64,000 nucleotides of DNA, from positions 4,766,356-4,830,355 of the forward strand of contig NZ_KB235896.1 of NCBI RefSeq assembly GCF_000332135.1, written 5' to 3'. Source of the DNA: Anabaena sp. PCC 7108. Its GTDB lineage: Bacteria > Cyanobacteriota > Cyanobacteriia > Cyanobacteriales > Nostocaceae. The stretch's first letter is position 1. Each line of letters opens with the position of its first letter. Made by a program: the position numbers and the translations under genes. The notes under the pieces were generated by a model, which was not told the origin of the DNA, ran no database searches, and saw only the letters and a list, made by a program, of their open reading frames with translations. Below are positions 21,682 to 31,261 of this stretch, in pieces.

Positions 21682-24600
21682 TTATTGAGAAAGAATCAAA
21701 TTTAGTACATTTAACTCATGAGAATTTAAAAGATACTTTTCTGTAAAAACTTTATTTCTAATTTCTTCTAAGCTATAACTCCTAAACACTACAAATGGAA
21801 ATTCTTTGTAATTAGATCCTATTGGTAAAACGTTACCGACAGGGTATAATGAACGAATATATATAGATAAAATATCTTTAAAACGTTGATCTTGTGGTTC
21901 TTCTGGTTGATTTTCAAAATATTCTTTCATCACTTCACCACTAATAAATGCAAATAATGGTAAAGCATAATATTGATCTGTATTGTGACTTTTCTGGACA
22001 AAGTTCTGTGTTTTTAGAGGTGCATTTCTGAGTCTTTCAACTAATTCTATTGCATCTTTAACTGCATAAGTCAGACTTTCTGGGTAAGTTTTACTTCTAC
22101 TAATTTTTTTTAGATTTTCCCATAAAACTACATTTGCATATTTTTCAATATCCAATAATCTCATTTGATAAGATTCTTCGATATTTTGACTGGGTACGAT
22201 TAATAAACCACCGCTAATATAACCTAACTCTAGGGGTTTAAAATCAAGTAATTTATCAAAGGTTTTTGCAGCTTCTAAAAATTTGCTATTGAAATCTTCT
22301 CTGAGAGATAAGTAACTTTCTTCTGTAGTTTTTTGTACCACAAAATCACCATCTCTCAAGAGTGCTTCTAGACTAGAATAGGCTTCTTTTAATAATTTAT
22401 GACTTTTGTTTATATTATATTCTTTTTTCAGTTGATTAATCAGATTTGCAATTTGACTAGAAAATGTTTCCCCAGCAGCTAAAACTGATTTTCCCCCAAT
22501 GGGAATCAGAATATATTTTTTTCTACCAATTACACCATAACCCTGGATTCTTGTCATGATTGATGCTTTGAGAATTAAAAGGAGATTTAATAAACTCAAA
22601 ACGCTTTCCTGTAGAGACAGTTGAGGATTATCTTGATAATAAAGGGAACGTTCTGCTAAATAAAAAGTGAGATATTTATCTTGATTATCGATAATATCAT
22701 TTCCCCTACCTCTGTAAATTACCTGAATAATTTCCATCAAGTTTTTTTCAATTTCAAACTTAGGTATTTCTACTAAGATATGTTTGGCTTTGGGGAAAGA
22801 TAAACCGCGACTTCCTGAAGCTGTCATGAAAACAACTTTGACATTTTCTTGATATTGTTGAATTTCTTGTTTTTCATGTTCAGATATATTCGCGTGTATT
22901 TCTAAATAATTGATATTTTTGGTAAAGTTGTCTTTTCCTAACTCTTCTTGAATTTTCTCAATTATTTCTGTTAATAGGCGTTTATTTTGGATGTAGACTA
23001 TAAATTGTTCAACGTCTGATTTGTGTAAAAGATTTTGAATATCTTTGAAAATTTCTGATTGCAATTTTTTCTCTAAATTAGAGTTATCTCGTAATTTAGC
23101 TTTATTGGTAAATCTACAAGATTCAATAATAATTTGATAGCTGATAGTTAAACTTTTAGCTGGGTATGTGTTAGTATTAATAATGATGCTGGGTAAATTG
23201 TTAAATATAAAAGATTCCACCGATAGAGGTTGAATATTTGACTCGGCTTTGCGAAAGAAGACTTTATTAGGTTCAGGGGTAGGGTCTTCTAAATGTTGAA
23301 GAATGACATTTTTATCAACTATAGAAGCATCAGCGACAATAATTTTAGTGTTGAAACTATTTTCCGGGGATGCTAATTTATATTCTTTAACTATTTTGTG
23401 AATTCCATCTAAAAATTCTACTCCTCCTTCATCTCCAGTAATTTCATCTATCATGATAAATAGATGTTTGATGCGACGAGAAATATTTTGCATTTTTTCT
23501 GGGAAAACTTTACCTTCACTTTCCTTATATGCGTCACGGAAGATTTTGGTGAGATGTTTCAAAGTATCCCCATAATCTGTTTTTTTCAATGACTGAGTAG
23601 AAGCGGTAGCAATAATCTGGTTATATTGTTCACAACTGATGAGATTATATATAGCTTCACAAATACTATTTAAAACTCCTTTGGTTTTTTGTCCAATATC
23701 TTGAAAGGTATCATCAGTAATATGTTCAAGTCTGTCTTTACGTCTAGCTTTTCTTTCCACATTTTCACTGTTGAGAAAATGAACATTTCCCAACCAAAAA
23801 TCATTCTGATGTTGATTAGACGTATATGCGACTGAATATTGACCACCGTTATCTTGAATTAAGTTACTGTGAGTATTGATAGCAAAAATTCTGTCGTCAA
23901 TCAATTTTTTATTTTGCTTATCTTTAAATTTTTCGATGATATCGAGGTTGACTTGTTTGCGCGGACTGACATAGAATAAAAGAAAACCTTCATCCTTATA
24001 TTCTCTGAGAAAATCGACGATAGCGGTAGTTTTCCCGATTCCAGGATTTCCGGTTAAGAAAATGTAGGTATTTTCAGAAAGTAGAGATTTTTGAATTAGT
24101 TGATTATGTGCTTGTCGGAAGTTGGGATTTCCGGTTAGATTTAAAGAAGAAATTAACTCTAGAGGAACTGTTGCGACGGAGTTATAAAATTCCGTGATTT
24201 TTTCTGTGTAAGGTTGTAAAGTATTGATGGTATCTGGAGTAATTTCTAAAAGTGAATTGACAAATTCGGGAATTTGTTCAAAAGTTATGGAAGCATTACG
24301 TTTGATTTGATTTAAAACTCGATGACGTGCGTCGGTAATTTCTTCTTTGTAATCATGAAGTTTATAAATTTGATAGCAAGTTTTGAAAATGTCGAGATTT
24401 TCTGCTTGAATAGAGATAGTATTGAAAGAGCGATCACTATATCCCACCGCATTACATACCAACTGTGAGATATCTGGAATCATCGCAGTTTTCTCCAGGA
24501 ACTGACAGAAGCTATAAATATAACCACCAGCTTGAATTAATTTCGCACTTTCCTTATCTTTAGATTTGAAAGCTGTAAAATATTCCTTTAAACCTGGGGA

Positions 24601-25287
24601 AAAATCTAAACCTAAAGATTCGGTATCAATTCGCAAACTAGAAAACACACTTTTAGAACGAATATAGTTAACATCTCGTATTAACAAGCGTCGAATAATT
24701 TCCACATAATCAATATTTTCGATGTCTTTATCAGTGTGGATCGAAAATACTGACAAATCAAGACATAAAACTCGATAGTTGCGTCGATATTTTAGCAAAA
24801 TCAAAGTATCTGCGTTAAGGAAATCACCTTTAGCTTGATATGTATCAATATCCTGAGAAGTTGGTTTTAAATTTTTAATCTGGGAAAGAACATTCTTAAA
24901 CCATTGTTTATCATTAACTTCATAAGTACTAATACTATTATCTCCATTAAACCGACATTGATAATATAAAATCTCTAGATGTCGAAATTTTGGTTTTTCA
25001 TCACATCCAATAGACTTGAGATATTCCTGGAAGAAGTTTAAACCACATAAAAAACCTTTTTGGACAAAAAATTGACACCAAGTACTAGCTATTTCTCTTT
25101 CTAACTTGCTGACCACTTTCCTCTCTATCGTCTTTCTAATTTCCGAAAATTTGAGATTTTTAAGTTCATCATAGTATAAGTTTCCAAACCGATTTTTGAT
25201 TTGGTTTTTGTGAATATAAGATAAGATTCCAATATTAAATCCGACTTCAAATAATCTTCCTAAATCATCTGCTATTTTTGCTGTCAT
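21682..25287 (-). CDS. large SF2 helicase-like ATPase of unknown system
   Basis: A 1,201-residue protein. Visible motifs: Walker A LTGNPGIGKTT (about 411-421), a Ia-like YVSPRKQVNLD (439-449), Walker B FIMIDEITGDEGG (610-622), a motif III-like KIIVADASIVD (648-658), motif IV-like QFIVYIQNKR, motif V TASGSRGLSFPKAKH (822-836) and motif VI QVIYRGRG (855-862). This order is that of superfamily 2 helicases, with a large insertion of about 160 residues between Ia and II. Residues 1-400 are unlike known helicase accessory domains; 150-180 (QAKGDFLNAD...YRVLCLDLS) could be a degenerate nuclease core. About 300 residues follow the helicase core. The start ATG has aggaaa at a good distance. It follows the 1,009-residue gene by 108 bases and is probably in its operon. 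AT-rich, without HIP1. The biological role is not known to me. Confidence 0.7.
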   Translation of the reverse strand: MTAKIADDLGRLFEVGFNIGILSYIHKNQIKNRFGNLYYDELKNLKFSEIRKTIERKVVSKLEREIASTWCQFFVQKGFLCGLNFFQEYLKSIGCDEKPKFRHLEILYYQCRFNGDNSISTYEVNDKQWFKNVLSQIKNLKPTSQDIDTYQAKGDFLNADTLILLKYRRNYRVLCLDLSVFSIHTDKDIENIDYVEIIRRLLIRDVNYIRSKSVFSSLRIDTESLGLDFSPGLKEYFTAFKSKDKESAKLIQAGGYIYSFCQFLEKTAMIPDISQLVCNAVGYSDRSFNTISIQAENLDIFKTCYQIYKLHDYKEEITDARHRVLNQIKRNASITFEQIPEFVNSLLEITPDTINTLQPYTEKITEFYNSVATVPLELISSLNLTGNPNFRQAHNQLIQKSLLSENTYIFLTGNPGIGKTTAIVDFLREYKDEGFLLFYVSPRKQVNLDIIEKFKDKQNKKLIDDRIFAINTHSNLIQDNGGQYSVAYTSNQHQNDFWLGNVHFLNSENVERKARRKDRLEHITDDTFQDIGQKTKGVLNSICEAIYNLISCEQYNQIIATASTQSLKKTDYGDTLKHLTKIFRDAYKESEGKVFPEKMQNISRRIKHLFIMIDEITGDEGGVEFLDGIHKIVKEYKLASPENSFNTKIIVADASIVDKNVILQHLEDPTPEPNKVFFRKAESNIQPLSVESFIFNNLPSIIINTNTYPAKSLTISYQIIIESCRFTNKAKLRDNSNLEKKLQSEIFKDIQNLLHKSDVEQFIVYIQNKRLLTEIIEKIQEELGKDNFTKNINYLEIHANISEHEKQEIQQYQENVKVVFMTASGSRGLSFPKAKHILVEIPKFEIEKNLMEIIQVIYRGRGNDIIDNQDKYLTFYLAERSLYYQDNPQLSLQESVLSLLNLLLILKASIMTRIQGYGVIGRKKYILIPIGGKSVLAAGETFSSQIANLINQLKKEYNINKSHKLLKEAYSSLEALLRDGDFVVQKTTEESYLSLREDFNSKFLEAAKTFDKLLDFKPLELGYISGGLLIVPSQNIEESYQMRLLDIEKYANVVLWENLKKISRSKTYPESLTYAVKDAIELVERLRNAPLKTQNFVQKSHNTDQYYALPLFAFISGEVMKEYFENQPEEPQDQRFKDILSIYIRSLYPVGNVLPIGSNYKEFPFVVFRSYSLEEIRNKVFTEKYLLNSHELNVLNLILSQ

Positions 25288-25395
25288 ATTTATTTCCTGT
25301 TTGTAATCAGCTTGAGGACTAAAGTCCTGACTACGAACTATTCAAATACGGTTAAGTTAGAGCTACAATTATCCTTAAGTTAACAGTATTGTGAA

Positions 25396-28300
25396 CTATT
25401 CTGGTTTTGCGAGTATTTCTTTGATGTAGGTTAAAAATGCTAAAGAGTTAAAATCAGCTTTGACTCGACTATGTTTAAATAGTGCGAGTTGACTAACTGA
25501 TTCATCTCCAATTAAATTTTGATATGGATCTAATTTTAGTTGAATGTCTTTGGATTTTTCATAACGTGAAAAATGAAATAAAGTTAAACATTGGAGAATT
25601 TCATTTTTTAAGTCGCTTTCCTGAGAAAGTAATCCTTCTCTGATATCTTGATCATCTAAAATACCATCATAAATATTTAATAATGTTGCGTAAGACATGA
25701 CTCCGTTATAATTATTCTCTTTAGAAAGTGCGATTCCATTAAATAAGTTAAAAAAGACTACTGATTGTTTATTAGGATCTTCTGCTAATTCAGTAAGTTC
25801 AATGGTATCTTGAATATATAATGATGTTGATTTGATGTTATCCGGTATTTTGACTGCGTAGTATTTATCAAAGAACATAGGATAAATTTTGATGTCATGT
25901 CTTTCTTTTTTTAACGCGGTAATTACGTTTTTTGACATAAAAAATAATTCTTCATCTTTTGCGATTTGGGTAATATGTAAGGTGCTGCTGTAGGGAACTT
26001 TAGCTATATAAATAAAGTGTCTATATCCTTGTTTATATAATTTGTCTACATTATCAACTACTACTGTGGGATATTCAAACATATTCTCATGATCATCATA
26101 GTTTTCTGAGAATGTTTTGAAAAGCTGAAATCTCACACTTTGCGGTTCTATCTGTAAAGTAACAATTTCTCCCATTAGGTTAGATTTTTTTACTTTTTTT
26201 CCCCATTTACTATCACTTTCTCGACTAGAAATTACTATAATTGCTAGTTTGTCAAGTTCTTTAAATTCAAAATTATCAGTTTTTAGTAATTTAAATTTTT
26301 TGGGTACAACTGAGTATAGAGAACTGAGAACATTAGGAATTTTAAATTTAGCTTTTTCCGCAAAATTAGTAATCACTATTCCCTGTTCATTACTGCGATA
26401 TCCGTCATTAAATAAGTGAGATAATACAGCAGTCAAAGAAACTATAAATTTTTCTATTGGTGCGTGATCAGTTTTTTCTTTGAGATGTAGTCTCAAAATG
26501 GGAATAAATAATTTTGTCTGTTTTGCAAATAAGACGTACAAACAAATATAAGCTAGTAAGCTATATACGATTTTGTAAGTAAATTCTTGATGTGTTTCTA
26601 GTTTTTGAGTCTCTAACCGATAGGGAAAAATTATCAGATTACGATGTTGTAAGTTTTTGCTATAAAATTCACTGCATTTTTTATCTTCCATGGGTAAAAA
26701 CACTACAGGTAAGACCCTAATACCCTTAGGAATATCATATTCCATGTCGAAGGTTTCTTTATCTTCAGTTTCTAAAAAATGAATTTCGCTGATTTTCAAG
26801 TTTGCTTTCAGACTGACAAGGTAGTTTGTCTCTGCGTTTGCGGTTCCTAGGTTAATATATTTCAAACAGTCTTTAAAGTTGTCTCGCAAAACTGGTTTAA
26901 ATACTGTGTCTCTATCGTTAATAGTATTAATGTCATTTTCTAAAATACTATTTTTAACAGAAATATGTAGAGGGTATTCTCTAGTAAAAAATGGAGTTTC
27001 TCTTTTAATAAGATTCGTTAAAACTTTTTTGAGTGTATCGATTTTATCCTGAACATTATATAATTTAAAACCCTTTAATAGGTTTCTAAATAATTGTTTT
27101 TTGGCTTGATCATCATTACTTTTTAATGTTAACAATACAGTTGCAAGTTTGGTAAGAGGATCATAATCTAACTCATGCTTAGGATTATAATTTTCCGATT
27201 TTGGATCTTGACGAGATGCAAATAGGAAATAATACAAAAATGCCAGTTTGAGAACTTTATTCACAAATGTGAATTTTCTTGATTCATCTGCAATTTCTGT
27301 TTGATGTTCTTTGCTATCTGGGTTTAACAGATTGAGATTATAATCAAATACACTTTTACCTCCATCATTTTGCACTTTTCCATCAAATTTTAACTTTAAA
27401 CCAAATATAAATTCTATTTTTTCTCGATTTTGATCTTCTGTTTCTCCTAAATAACCTTCAATGATGGGAATAATAGGTAACATATCATAAGCTTCACTTC
27501 GAGAAAACATGGTTTGATAATTAACTGATATTCCTGCATAATTAACTAGATATTCACCATCTGGCTGATTAGTATCATTAATATAATCATCTAGTACTTT
27601 TAATCTTCTGATTAAATCTTCTAAATATATTTTACCTTTAAAGTTATCAGCACTCGCATTTTCATTAATGTTGTCTAAGAGAAATTCTAAATATTTAATC
27701 TTTACTAGTTTTTTAAGTTTACCTAATGTTTCTTGATTAACTAGATTTTGTAATCGGTAAATATCCGAGTTAGGATTTTCTTTTAAACCATCTAAAACAT
27801 ATTCTAAATCTTCTCTATCGCTGGAATCAGTAAATCTTGCATCAATAAAGTTATTAATACCTATTAATAATGAAGAAGAAAAATCACGAGGCTTTTCCAC
27901 AGAAATTTTGACTTTATGCGCTTTCAGTAGTTGTCTTTGTTTGCTTTCACTTTTTTTTACTGTTAAGCGCTGTTTTTGCAGGTTTTGATATTTAGGAAAA
28001 TTATAACTAAAATCTAGTTTAGATGGTTGCTTGGAAATTGATAATGACTCTAAATCTATAGTTAGCTGTTTAATAAATTGAAATCTATCTATTGATATAT
28101 TTGAGGGATTTTGAGAAATAGCTGCTGTTAAACATTGCTGAGTACAATCAGCAATCTCTGTAATTTGTTCCCGAAATTTATGATAAGAACCAGAACTAAA
28201 ATTCAGGGTAGCAGTACGTACTGATCTTTCATTTCCTAAAGGATTATATGGTTGGAGGTTAATAACTTCATTAACTACTTGATCAATATTAATTAGTACG

Positions 28301-28419
28301 CGTTGATTGTCTTTGGAGATATTAAATATTTGTTTTTGCTTTAAGACTTGTAATATTTTCGTTAGTAAATCAGTATAATCCACATTGGCTAAGTCTGGAT
28401 TTATTGCTATTGTGTTCAT
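25396..28419 (-). CDS. large protein of unknown function, partner of the helicase-like ATPase
   Basis: About 1,007 residues. I do not recognise a family. ATG codons lie at 28425 and 28419; aagga ends only 0 bases before the first but at normal spacing before the second, so MNTIAINPDLANV is preferred. The first 200 residues are polar and helical; 380-480 are helical (KLAFLYYFLFASR); 610-650 has a hydrophobic patch (SLLAYICLYVLFAKQ) that may be buried or membrane-facing. Residues about 725-860 alternate beta strands and helices (LDKLAIIVISSRESD, GYRHFIYIAKVPYS, then IKIYPMFFDKYYAVKI), an arrangement vaguely like an RNase H/PIWI fold without catalytic acids. It is the promoter-proximal gene of the pair. 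A replication, defence or plasmid-derived role is conceivable but unproven. Confidence 0.6.
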   Translation of the reverse strand: MNTIAINPDLANVDYTDLLTKILQVLKQKQIFNISKDNQRVLINIDQVVNEVINLQPYNPLGNERSVRTATLNFSSGSYHKFREQITEIADCTQQCLTAAISQNPSNISIDRFQFIKQLTIDLESLSISKQPSKLDFSYNFPKYQNLQKQRLTVKKSESKQRQLLKAHKVKISVEKPRDFSSSLLIGINNFIDARFTDSSDREDLEYVLDGLKENPNSDIYRLQNLVNQETLGKLKKLVKIKYLEFLLDNINENASADNFKGKIYLEDLIRRLKVLDDYINDTNQPDGEYLVNYAGISVNYQTMFSRSEAYDMLPIIPIIEGYLGETEDQNREKIEFIFGLKLKFDGKVQNDGGKSVFDYNLNLLNPDSKEHQTEIADESRKFTFVNKVLKLAFLYYFLFASRQDPKSENYNPKHELDYDPLTKLATVLLTLKSNDDQAKKQLFRNLLKGFKLYNVQDKIDTLKKVLTNLIKRETPFFTREYPLHISVKNSILENDINTINDRDTVFKPVLRDNFKDCLKYINLGTANAETNYLVSLKANLKISEIHFLETEDKETFDMEYDIPKGIRVLPVVFLPMEDKKCSEFYSKNLQHRNLIIFPYRLETQKLETHQEFTYKIVYSLLAYICLYVLFAKQTKLFIPILRLHLKEKTDHAPIEKFIVSLTAVLSHLFNDGYRSNEQGIVITNFAEKAKFKIPNVLSSLYSVVPKKFKLLKTDNFEFKELDKLAIIVISSRESDSKWGKKVKKSNLMGEIVTLQIEPQSVRFQLFKTFSENYDDHENMFEYPTVVVDNVDKLYKQGYRHFIYIAKVPYSSTLHITQIAKDEELFFMSKNVITALKKERHDIKIYPMFFDKYYAVKIPDNIKSTSLYIQDTIELTELAEDPNKQSVVFFNLFNGIALSKENNYNGVMSYATLLNIYDGILDDQDIREGLLSQESDLKNEILQCLTLFHFSRYEKSKDIQLKLDPYQNLIGDESVSQLALFKHSRVKADFNSLAFLTYIKEILAKPE

Positions 28420-28459
28420 CTGCATCCTTAATTGTTGTTTTTAAAATTACAATTACTAG

Positions 28460-28491
28460 ATAATAATGCTTTGCATCTTGACAAGTCAAGA
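28460..28491 (-). promoter_or_regulatory. candidate promoter with overlapping palindrome upstream of the large operon
   Basis: On the minus strand TTGACT (28489-28484) is followed after 18 bases by TATTAT (28465-28460), a good sigma-70-type pair. The -35 lies inside the palindrome TCTTGAC-AA-GTCAAGA (28476-28491, 7-bp arms). A bound repressor would block the promoter, so an auto- or trans-regulator is likely. Confidence 0.6.
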
Positions 28492-28509
28492 CTTAATATT
28501 TGTTAAATA

Positions 28510-28530
28510 ATTAGACTGTAACAGTCTAAT
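28510..28530. promoter_or_regulatory. perfect 21-bp palindrome upstream of the large operon
   Basis: ATTAGACTGT (28510-28519) and ACAGTCTAAT (28521-28530) are exact reverse complements around one central base. It lies about 20 bases upstream of the -35 element on the operon side and over 320 bases from the divergent channel gene. It looks like an operator or activator site. Confidence 0.6.
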
Positions 28531-28853: not shown

Positions 28854-30497
28854 ATGAACACAACTTGGCAAGGAATAACCCAGTTGACAGGAGTTGGTTT
28901 GTCGAACAGGGTGCAATATTTTTTAGCACAATCGTCAAGCTTGCAAACTGAAACATCCGAAGTAGGCAAAGGTGTGGCTGAAGTACAAGGAGTAGTTGAG
29001 CAACTCATTCAGTTTACCCCCCGGTTATTAGGATCTGCGGCGATTTTATTAATAGGTTGGCTAATTGCCGCGATTATAGCTAAAGCCACCAAAAAAATTC
29101 TCGATCACACAAAAATAGATAACCGCATTGCCTCTGGTATCACTGGTGGTCAGGATGTTCCCGAAATAGAGAAATTAATCTCCAGCTTAGTATTTTGGAG
29201 CATCATTCTCTTAACAGTTGTAGCTGTTTTACAGAATCTGGGTTTGGAAGTGGCCTCTCGACCACTGAATAGTTTTCTAGACCAAGTCATTGGCTTTTTG
29301 CCTAAGGTGGTTGGTGCTGGCATAATTTTAGCTGCGGCTTGGTTTTTAGCCACTATCGTCAAACTCTTTACAGTAAGAGCATTACAGACTTTTAGGCTAG
29401 ATCAGATTTTACAGCAAGAAACCCAAGATACTACAGATGTCACGAATCAATTATCTCTGACTGAGACTATTGGTAGTGCTTTGTATTGGTTCATTTTCTT
29501 ACTGTTTCTTGTGCCAGTCCTGGACACTTTAGGGCTACAGCAAGCATTACAACCAGTACAAGCTTTAACTACAGAGATTCTTTCCATTCTGCCCAATATT
29601 TTGGCAGCAATGCTCATTGGTGCTGTGGGTTGGTTTTTTGCGAATGTAGTCCGTCGGATTGTTACTAATCTGCTACATACAACAGGTTTTGACAATTTGG
29701 GAAGTCGGGTAGGACTGTCTTCAGCTACAGGAGTGCAATCTTTATCAACAATTATTGGGACGATTGTTTACATTCTGATTTTAATTCCTGTTGCGATCGC
29801 TAGTTTGAATGCTCTCAAAATTGAGGCCATTTCTGCACCAGCCATCCTCATGCTGCAACAAGTTCTCAATACTTTACCCAGCATTTTCACAGCAGCAGGA
29901 ATTTTAATTGTTGCCTATTTCTTAGGTAGATTTGCCTCGGATTTAGTCACAAGCATCCTTACCAGTTTAGGTTTTAACAACATTTTCACTGTCCTGGGTT
30001 TACCATCACTCAATCGGTCAGCAGCAACTTTAGAAGAACCCATTACACCAACTCGCACCCCCTCGGAATTAGCCGGGATTATTGCTTTGGTGGGAATCAT
30101 GCTGTTTGCAACTGTTGCCGCCGTGAATATTTTGAATATTCCTGCCCTGACTGTGTTGGTGACAGGTATTGTCATTATTTTGGGAAGGATTTTAGCGGGA
30201 TTGATAGTATTTGCTGTAGGTCTGTTTTTGGCAAATCTAGCCTTTACTATTATCAGCAGTTCTGGTAATTCCCAAAGCCTGTTTTTAGCACAAGTCGCCC
30301 GTATATCTATCATTGCCTTAGTCTCAGCAATGGCACTGCAACAGATTGGTATTGCTCCTGATATCGTCAATTTAGCATTTGGTCTATTATTTGGAGCGAT
30401 CGCTGTCGCCATTGCTTTAGCCTTTGGTTTGGGTGGCCGTGACGTTGCCCAAGAACAAATGAGAGAATGGTTAACTTCTTTTAAAAATAAAGAATGA
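28854..30497 (+). CDS. mechanosensitive-channel-like TM-helix repeat protein
   Basis: A 547-residue inner-membrane protein made of repeated units of the conserved TM-helix type (PF05552): a long hydrophobic helix followed by a basic amphipathic stretch, for example LLGSAAILLIGWLIAAIIAKATK, then FLPKVVGAGIILAAAWFLATI, LPNILAAMLIGAVGWFFANVVRR and LPSIFTAAGILIVAYFLGRF. The end (ALAFGLGGRDVAQEQM) is the channel-like glycine-rich signature. Such proteins are annotated as small-conductance mechanosensitive channel-like (CmpX type) and are linked to osmotic balance. The MscS beta domain is absent. The gene lies divergent from the large operon and ends in a shared bidirectional terminator. Confidence 0.8.
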   Translation: MNTTWQGITQLTGVGLSNRVQYFLAQSSSLQTETSEVGKGVAEVQGVVEQLIQFTPRLLGSAAILLIGWLIAAIIAKATKKILDHTKIDNRIASGITGGQDVPEIEKLISSLVFWSIILLTVVAVLQNLGLEVASRPLNSFLDQVIGFLPKVVGAGIILAAAWFLATIVKLFTVRALQTFRLDQILQQETQDTTDVTNQLSLTETIGSALYWFIFLLFLVPVLDTLGLQQALQPVQALTTEILSILPNILAAMLIGAVGWFFANVVRRIVTNLLHTTGFDNLGSRVGLSSATGVQSLSTIIGTIVYILILIPVAIASLNALKIEAISAPAILMLQQVLNTLPSIFTAAGILIVAYFLGRFASDLVTSILTSLGFNNIFTVLGLPSLNRSAATLEEPITPTRTPSELAGIIALVGIMLFATVAAVNILNIPALTVLVTGIVIILGRILAGLIVFAVGLFLANLAFTIISSSGNSQSLFLAQVARISIIALVSAMALQQIGIAPDIVNLAFGLLFGAIAVAIALAFGLGGRDVAQEQMREWLTSFKNKE

Positions 30498-30557: not shown

Positions 30558-30587
30558 CCCGACTCCGTTCAGAAGTCGGGGATCTTT
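30558..30587. terminator. bidirectional terminator between the channel gene and purQ
   Basis: CCCGACT (30558-30564) and AGTCGGG (30574-30580) form a strong stem with a 9-nt loop. It has gatctttt on the right for the plus strand and an A-rich left flank that becomes attttta on the minus strand. The genes converge here. Confidence 0.8.
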
Positions 30588-31261
30588 TACACCAAAGCTG
30601 CAACTTTCCCCAGCAAACCCTGAAACAAGCGCAAACCATCGCTATTACCTAACTCTGCATCTGCGGCTCGTTCTGGGTGGGGCATCATACCTAAAACATT
30701 ACCTTGACGATTACAAATCCCGGCAATGTTGTTTAATGAACCATTGGGATTTTCTTGGTGATAACGAAACAGAACTTGTCCGTTATCTTCAATTTCTGCT
30801 AAAGTCTTTTCATCAGCATAAAATCGCCCTTCTCCGTGAGCAATCGGTAAAGTAATAATTTCATTCTCTGCATAACCTTGACTCCAAGGTAAATTATTAC
30901 GCTCAACTTTCAAAGGAGAGCGATCGCAGATAAAATGTAAATCTTGATTTCTAGCCAATACTCCAGGTAATAAACCAGCTTCAGTTAATACCTGAAAACC
31001 ATTACAAATACCCAAGACAAATTTACCCTTTTGTGAGTGTTCAATCACTTGTTGCATCACAGGAGAAAAACGAGCGATCGCACCACAACGTAAATAATCA
31101 CCGTAACTAAAGCCACCGGGGACAATCACCACATCTATATCACTAATATCAGTCTCTTGATGCCATACCATGCGCGTTGCTTGTCCTAGCAAGTCTCTAG
31201 TAACATATGCAACATCACGATCACAGTTAGACCCTGGAAAAACTAAAACACCGAATTTCAT
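30587..31261 (-). CDS. purQ: phosphoribosylformylglycinamidine synthase subunit PurQ
   Basis: A 224-residue class I glutamine amidotransferase that delivers ammonia to PurL in purine synthesis. It starts MKFGVLVFPGSNCDRDV, with the catalytic cysteine in GICNGFQVLTEAGLLPG (about 86-102) and the His-Glu pair in MMPHPERAAD near the end. Length is normal. It lies 111 bases downstream of purS on the same strand; a repeat stretch fills the gap. purL is not in the window. Confidence 0.96.
   Translation of the reverse strand: MKFGVLVFPGSNCDRDVAYVTRDLLGQATRMVWHQETDISDIDVVIVPGGFSYGDYLRCGAIARFSPVMQQVIEHSQKGKFVLGICNGFQVLTEAGLLPGVLARNQDLHFICDRSPLKVERNNLPWSQGYAENEIITLPIAHGEGRFYADEKTLAEIEDNGQVLFRYHQENPNGSLNNIAGICNRQGNVLGMMPHPERAADAELGNSDGLRLFQGLLGKVAALV

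Follow-up and report, generated by a model that had tools for sequence, protein, structure and literature searches.

An Argonaute-fold protein paired with a nuclease-like SF2 motor in Anabaena sp. PCC 7108: a candidate module of DNA defence

What do two large adjacent genes of the cyanobacterium Anabaena sp. PCC 7108 encode, when sequence libraries recognise only part of one of them? The genes lie on the minus strand of a 64,000-nucleotide stretch of contig NZ_KB235896.1 (hereafter the window). Gene 1 (25396..28425) encodes a protein of 1009 residues and gene 2 (21682..25287) one of 1201. Both open reading frames (ORFs) are intact, measure 3.0 and 3.6 kb and are separated by 108 bases, as described in the original prediction made from the letters of the window, whose range for the unit (21682-28530) is correct with the promoter included. 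The AT-rich composition that it reported is equally evident, with 30.0% GC in the pair versus 39.4% in the remainder of the window, a contrast repeated in five relatives (0.30-0.32 versus 0.38-0.41 in the surroundings). No Rfam family reached its gathering score between 20600 and 29000. Here we describe the tight pairing of an Argonaute-fold protein with a motor that bears a nuclease-like part, distributed like a defence system, a description that is well supported by the analyses below.

Neither Pfam nor PADLOC, NCBIfam or PHROGs offers a convincing match for gene 1. Hidden Markov model libraries run on the pair recovered only the helicase part of gene 2, together with a weak match of PADLOC mad8 round its P-loop (9.4e-6), and a profile search of gene 1 in Protein Data Bank (PDB) sequences returned a single chance-like match, Rpb4 (E 0.073). 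Structure prediction, which had been proposed earlier for both proteins, gave an Argonaute fold for gene 1 and an SF2 (superfamily 2) helicase for gene 2; this Argonaute fold and the nuclease-like N-terminal part of gene 2 had been missed earlier. The AlphaFold2 model of gene 1 has a predicted local distance difference test score (pLDDT) of 85.1. In a Foldseek comparison with the PDB, ranks 1-46 of the best 50 matches are all Argonaute entries (best E 9.8e-5), and many of the alignments start at about residue 152, where the N-terminal parts of long Argonautes align. The model also contains the feature by which Argonaute/PIWI proteins are recognised, a predicted MID-PIWI fold at about residues 549-1003. 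The second-best VIA match of gene 1 is Med13 (7kpv_D).

To which kind of Argonaute does gene 1 correspond? We aligned its family manually to the canonical prokaryotic Argonaute (pAgo) of a same-genus genome (G389) and compared 18 diverged members. Three of the four positions of the DEDX tetrad fall on residues 732, 808 and 993, the fourth not being placed. Residue 732 lies in a strand VISSR or VVSSR, 808 in IYIAK (LLSHH in three of the four proteobacterial members) and 993 in FNSLAF; none of the 18 members is acidic at any of these positions. Gene 1 is probably an Argonaute whose catalysis has been lost, and it may still be able to bind a guide. The same alignment points to a putative pocket for the guide 5' end in the MID part, Q681-G682 ... 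K709 (26299..26385, minus strand). All 18 diverged members retain Q681-G682, and K709 is conserved in no fewer than 90% of the 40 sequences in alignment A1; with reference to the MID 5'-end motif of Y-K-Q-K type, QG and K709 are kept and Y-x3-K is not evident. In A1 (40 members) and A2 (35), broken or contig-cut copies were omitted and near duplicates dropped by eye.

Gene 2 shows the SF2 motifs in the order previously claimed for them: GNPGIGKTT (413-421), DEITGD (614-619), GSRGLSFP (825-832) and QVIYRGRG (855-862). These sequence motifs define a motor core at about residues 390-880 (22648..24120, minus strand). Pfam assigns Helicase_C (E 2.6e-8), and the AlphaFold2 model, folded minus the last residue (pLDDT 80.6), matches SF2 helicases including Brr2, Prp2, WRN, MrfA and LlaBIII by Foldseek and VIA, the VIA rows covering residues 332-1077. 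A DinG-type helicase was considered and ruled out, as the motor part is without the invariant cysteine needed for the DinG iron-sulphur region. The C-terminal 332 residues have no match in Pfam, though the fold of that part was not assessed alone. LlaBIII (4xqk_B, Foldseek E 1.7e-6) is a type ISP restriction enzyme that shares the SF2 motor and has a nuclease N-terminal to it; its own methyltransferase and target recognition parts were not seen in the pair.

RecB-like nucleases of the PD-(D/E)XK type carry the motif D ... (D/E)-x-K plus QxxxY. The N-terminal part of gene 2 (about residues 100-256; 24520..24990, minus strand) resembles them in its motifs and in the order of its predicted strands and helices, with G154-x-F156-x2-A159-D160, D177-x-S179, K245, K249 and Q252-x3-Y256. 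Residues G154, D160, K245, K249, Q252 and Y256 are invariant in 32 gene 2 members from both phyla, including five distant ones (L096 and four from Proteobacteria), and position 177 is D or E in the 16 members displayed. The two invariant lysines (K245, K249) lie near the QxxxY helix, and an invariant lysine may have taken over from the usual one of the PD-(D/E)XK motif.

The two genes travel together. We collected 65 loci (45 from a database and 20 from genomes, the sets deriving partly from the same genomes), and the co-occurrence search suggested earlier shows that homologues are not always apart: both genes are present in 58, and in 54 they lie within 600 bases of each other. The Argonaute gene comes first as a rule, with gene 2 upstream only in L040. 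Gene 1 stands alone in seven loci, five of which have a contig ending at or soon after it. Several genes separate the two in L039, L057 and L086: a kinase, a sensor and others in L039:13275-18689 and L057:13272-21804, and an Eco57I/type IIG-like enzyme (by reading) with small ORFs in L086:3173-8843. In Microcoleus-type loci (L047, L048, L051, L055) the first pair is directly followed by another gene 1, which shares about 44% identity with that of the window, and in L051 the start of a second gene 2 is also present. Gene 1 and gene 2 co-evolve: across 33 loci their protein distances correlate at r = 0.95, a value that none of 1000 permutations reached, against 0.52 for gene 1 and purQ across 23 loci. 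The ratio of nonsynonymous to synonymous substitution rates is 0.14 for each gene when compared with L070 and lies at 0.17-0.23 in three further comparisons; both genes are under purifying selection.

The distribution of the pair is patchy. Of 388 genomes sampled from the class, 22 have a relative of gene 1, as do 64 of 217 from the family; the genome of the window itself is counted here, and so are copies that are decayed or partial. Both genes are present on six cyanobacterial plasmids, each of them typed as conjugative; one copy resides on plasmid C of a strain widely used in the laboratory, Trichormus variabilis ATCC 29413. More distant pairs occur on four proteobacterial plasmids, from Acinetobacter (two), Cupriavidus and Acetobacter. 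Profile comparison shows the proteobacterial first genes, taken as a group, to be homologues of gene 1 (E 1.8e-18 over 927 columns); in a six-sequence search those of Cupriavidus and both Acinetobacter plasmids match the gene 1 profile singly, and that of Acetobacter matches its Cupriavidus counterpart (3e-42). Relatives of neither gene turned up in phage records (searched by tblastn for gene 1), and a pattern-based scan of viral contigs likewise found none for gene 1. Stanieria retains just the 3' half of gene 2, and in the 3.8 Mb genome G143 (L089) both genes are heavily decayed near a partial purQ match. A conserved motor with a large partner, patchy and sometimes plasmid-borne, makes the pair defence-like, and to this extent the earlier proposal of a defence or mobile module stands; its further claim of an insertion fares differently, as discussed below.

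How might such a pair act? We favour, with slightly better than even confidence, a role in defence against invading DNA, from plasmids and possibly from phages, in which an inactive Argonaute recruits a motor-nuclease, as in DdmDE and ApsAB. Gene 1, probably an inactive Argonaute, would carry a short guide of nucleic acid in the MID-PIWI half, pair this guide with foreign DNA and recruit gene 2 to it. The SF2 motor of gene 2 would load on the opened DNA and travel along it, and the N-terminal PD-(D/E)XK-like part would cut while the motor moves. Guide-directed destruction of invading DNA appears the most likely mechanism, within which we infer the loss of catalysis, the binding and kind of guide, the recruitment, the nuclease activity and the target.

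The closest parallels come from two plasmid defence systems. DdmDE of Vibrio cholerae comprises an Argonaute without catalysis and an SF2 helicase with a C-terminal PD-(D/E)XK domain, and Argonaute-directed recruitment of the motor-nuclease to invading DNA is its reported way of working (PMC12409362). Like DdmDE, the pair consists of two genes, with corresponding proposed roles. The nuclease of DdmD is C-terminal, whereas the nuclease-like motifs of gene 2 are N-terminal (154-256). A WYL gene, discussed as a possible regulator of ddmDE (PMC12409362), also sits beside one copy of the pair (L091). ApsAB, an antiplasmid system of E. coli, combines an Argonaute-like partner with a helicase again bearing a C-terminal PD-(D/E)XK domain; ApsB escapes sequence search as an Argonaute and has a MID motif with conserved QG and K (PMC11096173), and gene 1 is likewise hidden at the sequence level and keeps QG and K709.

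Could the pair then be a distant ApsAB/DdmDE branch, gene 1 being a relative of ApsB/DdmE and gene 2 a relative of ApsA/DdmD with a moved nuclease? The shared division of labour between an Argonaute-like protein and an SF2 helicase with a PD-(D/E)XK domain, the common QG and K, and the ApsAB-like systems reported in some cyanobacteria and betaproteobacteria (PMC11096173) all speak for this. However, apsA, the helicase gene, lies upstream of apsB, while the Argonaute gene leads in our pair; the nuclease of ApsA and DdmD is C-terminal, although gene 2 may conceivably have one there too; ApsA has GFGKS, DELH, SAT and QAVGRVER where gene 2 has GIGKT, DEITGD and QVIYRGRG; and the profiles of both families, run against PDB sequences, matched no chain named DdmD or DdmE. 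The fold searches kept the best 50 matches each, and the absence of DdmE and DdmD among those is no evidence. We regard such a branch as unlikely, if far from negligible. By anatomy the pair would work like DdmDE. We nonetheless keep it apart from that system, since its layout is different in the features tested and the searches revealed no sequence relationship, a separation drawn from the descriptions of both systems and from PDB chain names. We found no publication describing the pair, judging by titles and the start of abstracts in open papers, with supplements excluded; it may be listed among the cyanobacterial relatives of ApsAB.

In another scenario the pair would be a diverged PIWI-RE system, performing RNA-guided restriction with helicase and nuclease. 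Here too a divergent PIWI protein, of about 900-1000 residues, has a patchy spread and helicase and nuclease functions nearby, arranged as three genes in the order restriction endonuclease (REase) - DinG - PIWI-RE (PMC3702460). The pair, in contrast, has two genes with the Argonaute first and no separate REase gene, and its motor, as noted, is not of the DinG type. No pPIWI_RE model was found for 40 gene 1 members at E<=1 (best 25 of 31 Pfam families, the last rows among the matches listed being single members with E about 0.2). A PIWI-RE origin is in our judgement quite improbable. Operons with the PIWI-RE size pattern do occur in L179, L181, L183 and L184. More generally, a survey of pAgos describes inactive members as often encoded with nucleases, and helicases as possible in pAgo operons (PMC6299218).

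The chromosomal setting of the pair adds a further dimension. In Nostocales it often lies downstream of purS-purQ on the same strand, and purQ is on the fetched stretch of 29 of the 65 loci; in the window this anchor gene, outside the unit, occupies 30587..31261 (minus strand). A channel gene, mscS-like by reading, stands between purQ and the pair (28854-30497), and the original prediction had the pair inserted between a 2TM gene and this channel gene. Two same-genus genomes, G388 and G390, do not support this, having the order purQ - gene 1 - gene 2 - 2TM - ndhD. The channel gene has no match in the genomes G388, G389 and G390, and from their order it is more likely the channel gene, rather than the pair, that is the newcomer. 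In a further same-genus genome (G391) a channel gene copy, 84% identical, lies elsewhere on the chromosome. The SPFH, Fur-like, purQ, 2TM and ndhD proteins of G388 and G390 are 94-98% identical to those of the window and purS 89%, versus 57-59% for gene 1 and 66% for gene 2; in G205, of another genus, gene 1 is 87%, gene 2 86% and purQ 92% identical. A diverged pair among such similar flanks, together with a closer copy in another genus, suggests that the pair has probably been exchanged at a fixed chromosomal address.

Other systems use the same address. In G389 the purQ-2TM slot (L155:10791-16362) holds a PADLOC class II pAgo (E 0) and a Cas4-like nuclease (2.9e-141). This long pAgo system resembles the pair in joining an Argonaute to a PD-(D/E)XK partner and differs in its recognisable Piwi sequence, its separate small nuclease and the lack of a large motor. 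RSF1010 plasmids are kept in check in Synechococcus by SeAgo as well as by a Cas4-like nuclease (PMC10653904). G116 has a Piwi match 5.4 kb beyond purQ, behind a 273-residue ORF that is probably the Cas4-like PADLOC match. The G389 slot also contains two ImmA-like ORFs on the opposite strand, one with a helix-turn-helix part, and in G391 (L156:10280-13552) a ParE/RelE-like ORF and a NACHT-like NTPase stand beside purQ, all by reading.

Outside this slot, the neighbours of 32 chosen loci (none with purQ where tested, L090-L096 not being tested) comprise 124 proteins, namely 123 and the L086 type IIG-like enzyme added by hand, which match 108 PADLOC families. As one protein can match many models and the choice was not blind, this count is suggestive only. 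The Hhe matches presumably belong to L090, where a DUF4011 gene is near the pair, and the IIG model matches to L086. Among further neighbours of defence type, annotated DncV-like cyclase and E2 genes lie about 10 kb from the pair in L096, and McrB/McrC-like ORFs (by reading) near it in L092. After the pair on Trichormus variabilis plasmid C (L094:15680-27212) come two large hypothetical genes, together with a DEAD/DEAH helicase and a cytosine methyltransferase, which may constitute a further defence system.

The upstream region of gene 1 had been credited with its own promoter and operator-like palindromes, and here the outcome is divided. The proposed promoter (28460..28491, minus strand) reads TTGACT-18-TATTAT (box span 28489..28460), with the dyad TCTTGAC/GTCAAGA across the -35 box. 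This is a 10/12 match, and a bare scan for such boxes is not above chance (2 found versus 2.2 expected). By eye, nonetheless, the -35 dyad (TTGACTTGTCAA, varying) followed by an AT-rich -10-like box is found upstream of gene 1 in nine of ten relatives, L072 being the sole exception. The second palindrome, ATTAGACTGT / ACAGTCTAAT at 28510-28530, lies upstream of the promoter; it is a perfect inverted repeat of 10 bases, with no recurrence in the ten relatives compared.

The recurrent promoter and the fixed place beside purQ in many Nostocales would also suit a chromosomal housekeeping or stress pair, in which the Argonaute fold is reused as by Med13 in transcription control; the VIA match of gene 1 to Med13 agrees with this. 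Against it stand the lack of a gene 1 match in 153 of the 217 family genomes, the presence on conjugative plasmids, the tandem and decayed copies, and the exchange at a fixed place with gene 1 far less conserved than most flank proteins. On these grounds a housekeeping complex was rejected, and we consider it highly improbable; strong profile matches of both proteins to such a complex were not found either.

Several observations count against guide-directed defence by the pair as proposed here. The fold matches of gene 1 have low template modelling scores (TM-scores), 0.16-0.26 by query for ranks 1-46, with 305-417 residues aligned among the matches listed. No Piwi (PF02171) or pAgo model matches gene 1, and profiles of 29 pAgos and five PIWI-RE proteins compared with it gave nothing; a control comparison of pAgo with PIWI-RE also failed, so that this null result does not separate families. 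These low scores and the missing sequence support would be expected if the Argonaute assignment were a false structural match, which, given the run of Argonaute entries described above, we hold to be the least probable of the explanations considered. D738 and E753 are invariant in all 40 members of A1, most cyanobacterial members have D/E at 991, and L093 has acidic residues neighbouring position 732; with such acidic residues retained, the loss of catalysis rests on the manual alignment. In gene 2 a serine (S179) occupies the usual place of the PD-(D/E)XK lysine, and its N-terminal part has no Pfam nuclease match beyond sub-threshold TnsA_C and RE_SacI. L060 (3.5 kb) and L081 (8 kb) show gene 1 with no gene 2 within the stretch covered, and the Acetobacter first gene alone does not match the gene 1 profile (E 0.26).

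The slot itself is a further such point. We took the first three ORFs (>=90 residues) downstream of purQ in 40 of the 153 genomes lacking a gene 1 match, which gave 120 slot proteins (of 159 listed). As controls we used 117 of 154 listed proteins, drawn from 40 regions on large contigs of 29 of the same genomes, 11 of which contributed two regions each. Both sets were matched to PADLOC at E<=1e-10. The slot yielded 39 PADLOC families versus 50 in the controls, and without an excess it is not established as a defence hotspot; single slot proteins match ZorA, ZorB, ZorC, Cas4-like nuclease and PD-Lambda-2 models. Lastly, the functional role assigned to the pair derives from computation.

In this context, we tentatively put forward, at somewhat below even confidence, that the pair represents an undescribed, separate class of Argonaute-guided DNA defence in Cyanobacteria and Proteobacteria. 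It would combine a deep PIWI branch outside pAgo, PIWI-RE, DdmE and ApsB with a motor carrying an N-terminal nuclease and a relocated lysine, and would have in Nostocaceae a slot where Argonaute systems replace one another. Our findings suggest that sequence libraries understate the diversity of prokaryotic Argonautes, and that an Argonaute with a motor-nuclease is a recurrent design, open to a different order of genes and domains. The slot common to the pair and a canonical pAgo makes replacement between Argonaute systems directly testable, and the pair might help to account for the poor plasmid uptake of some Nostocales.

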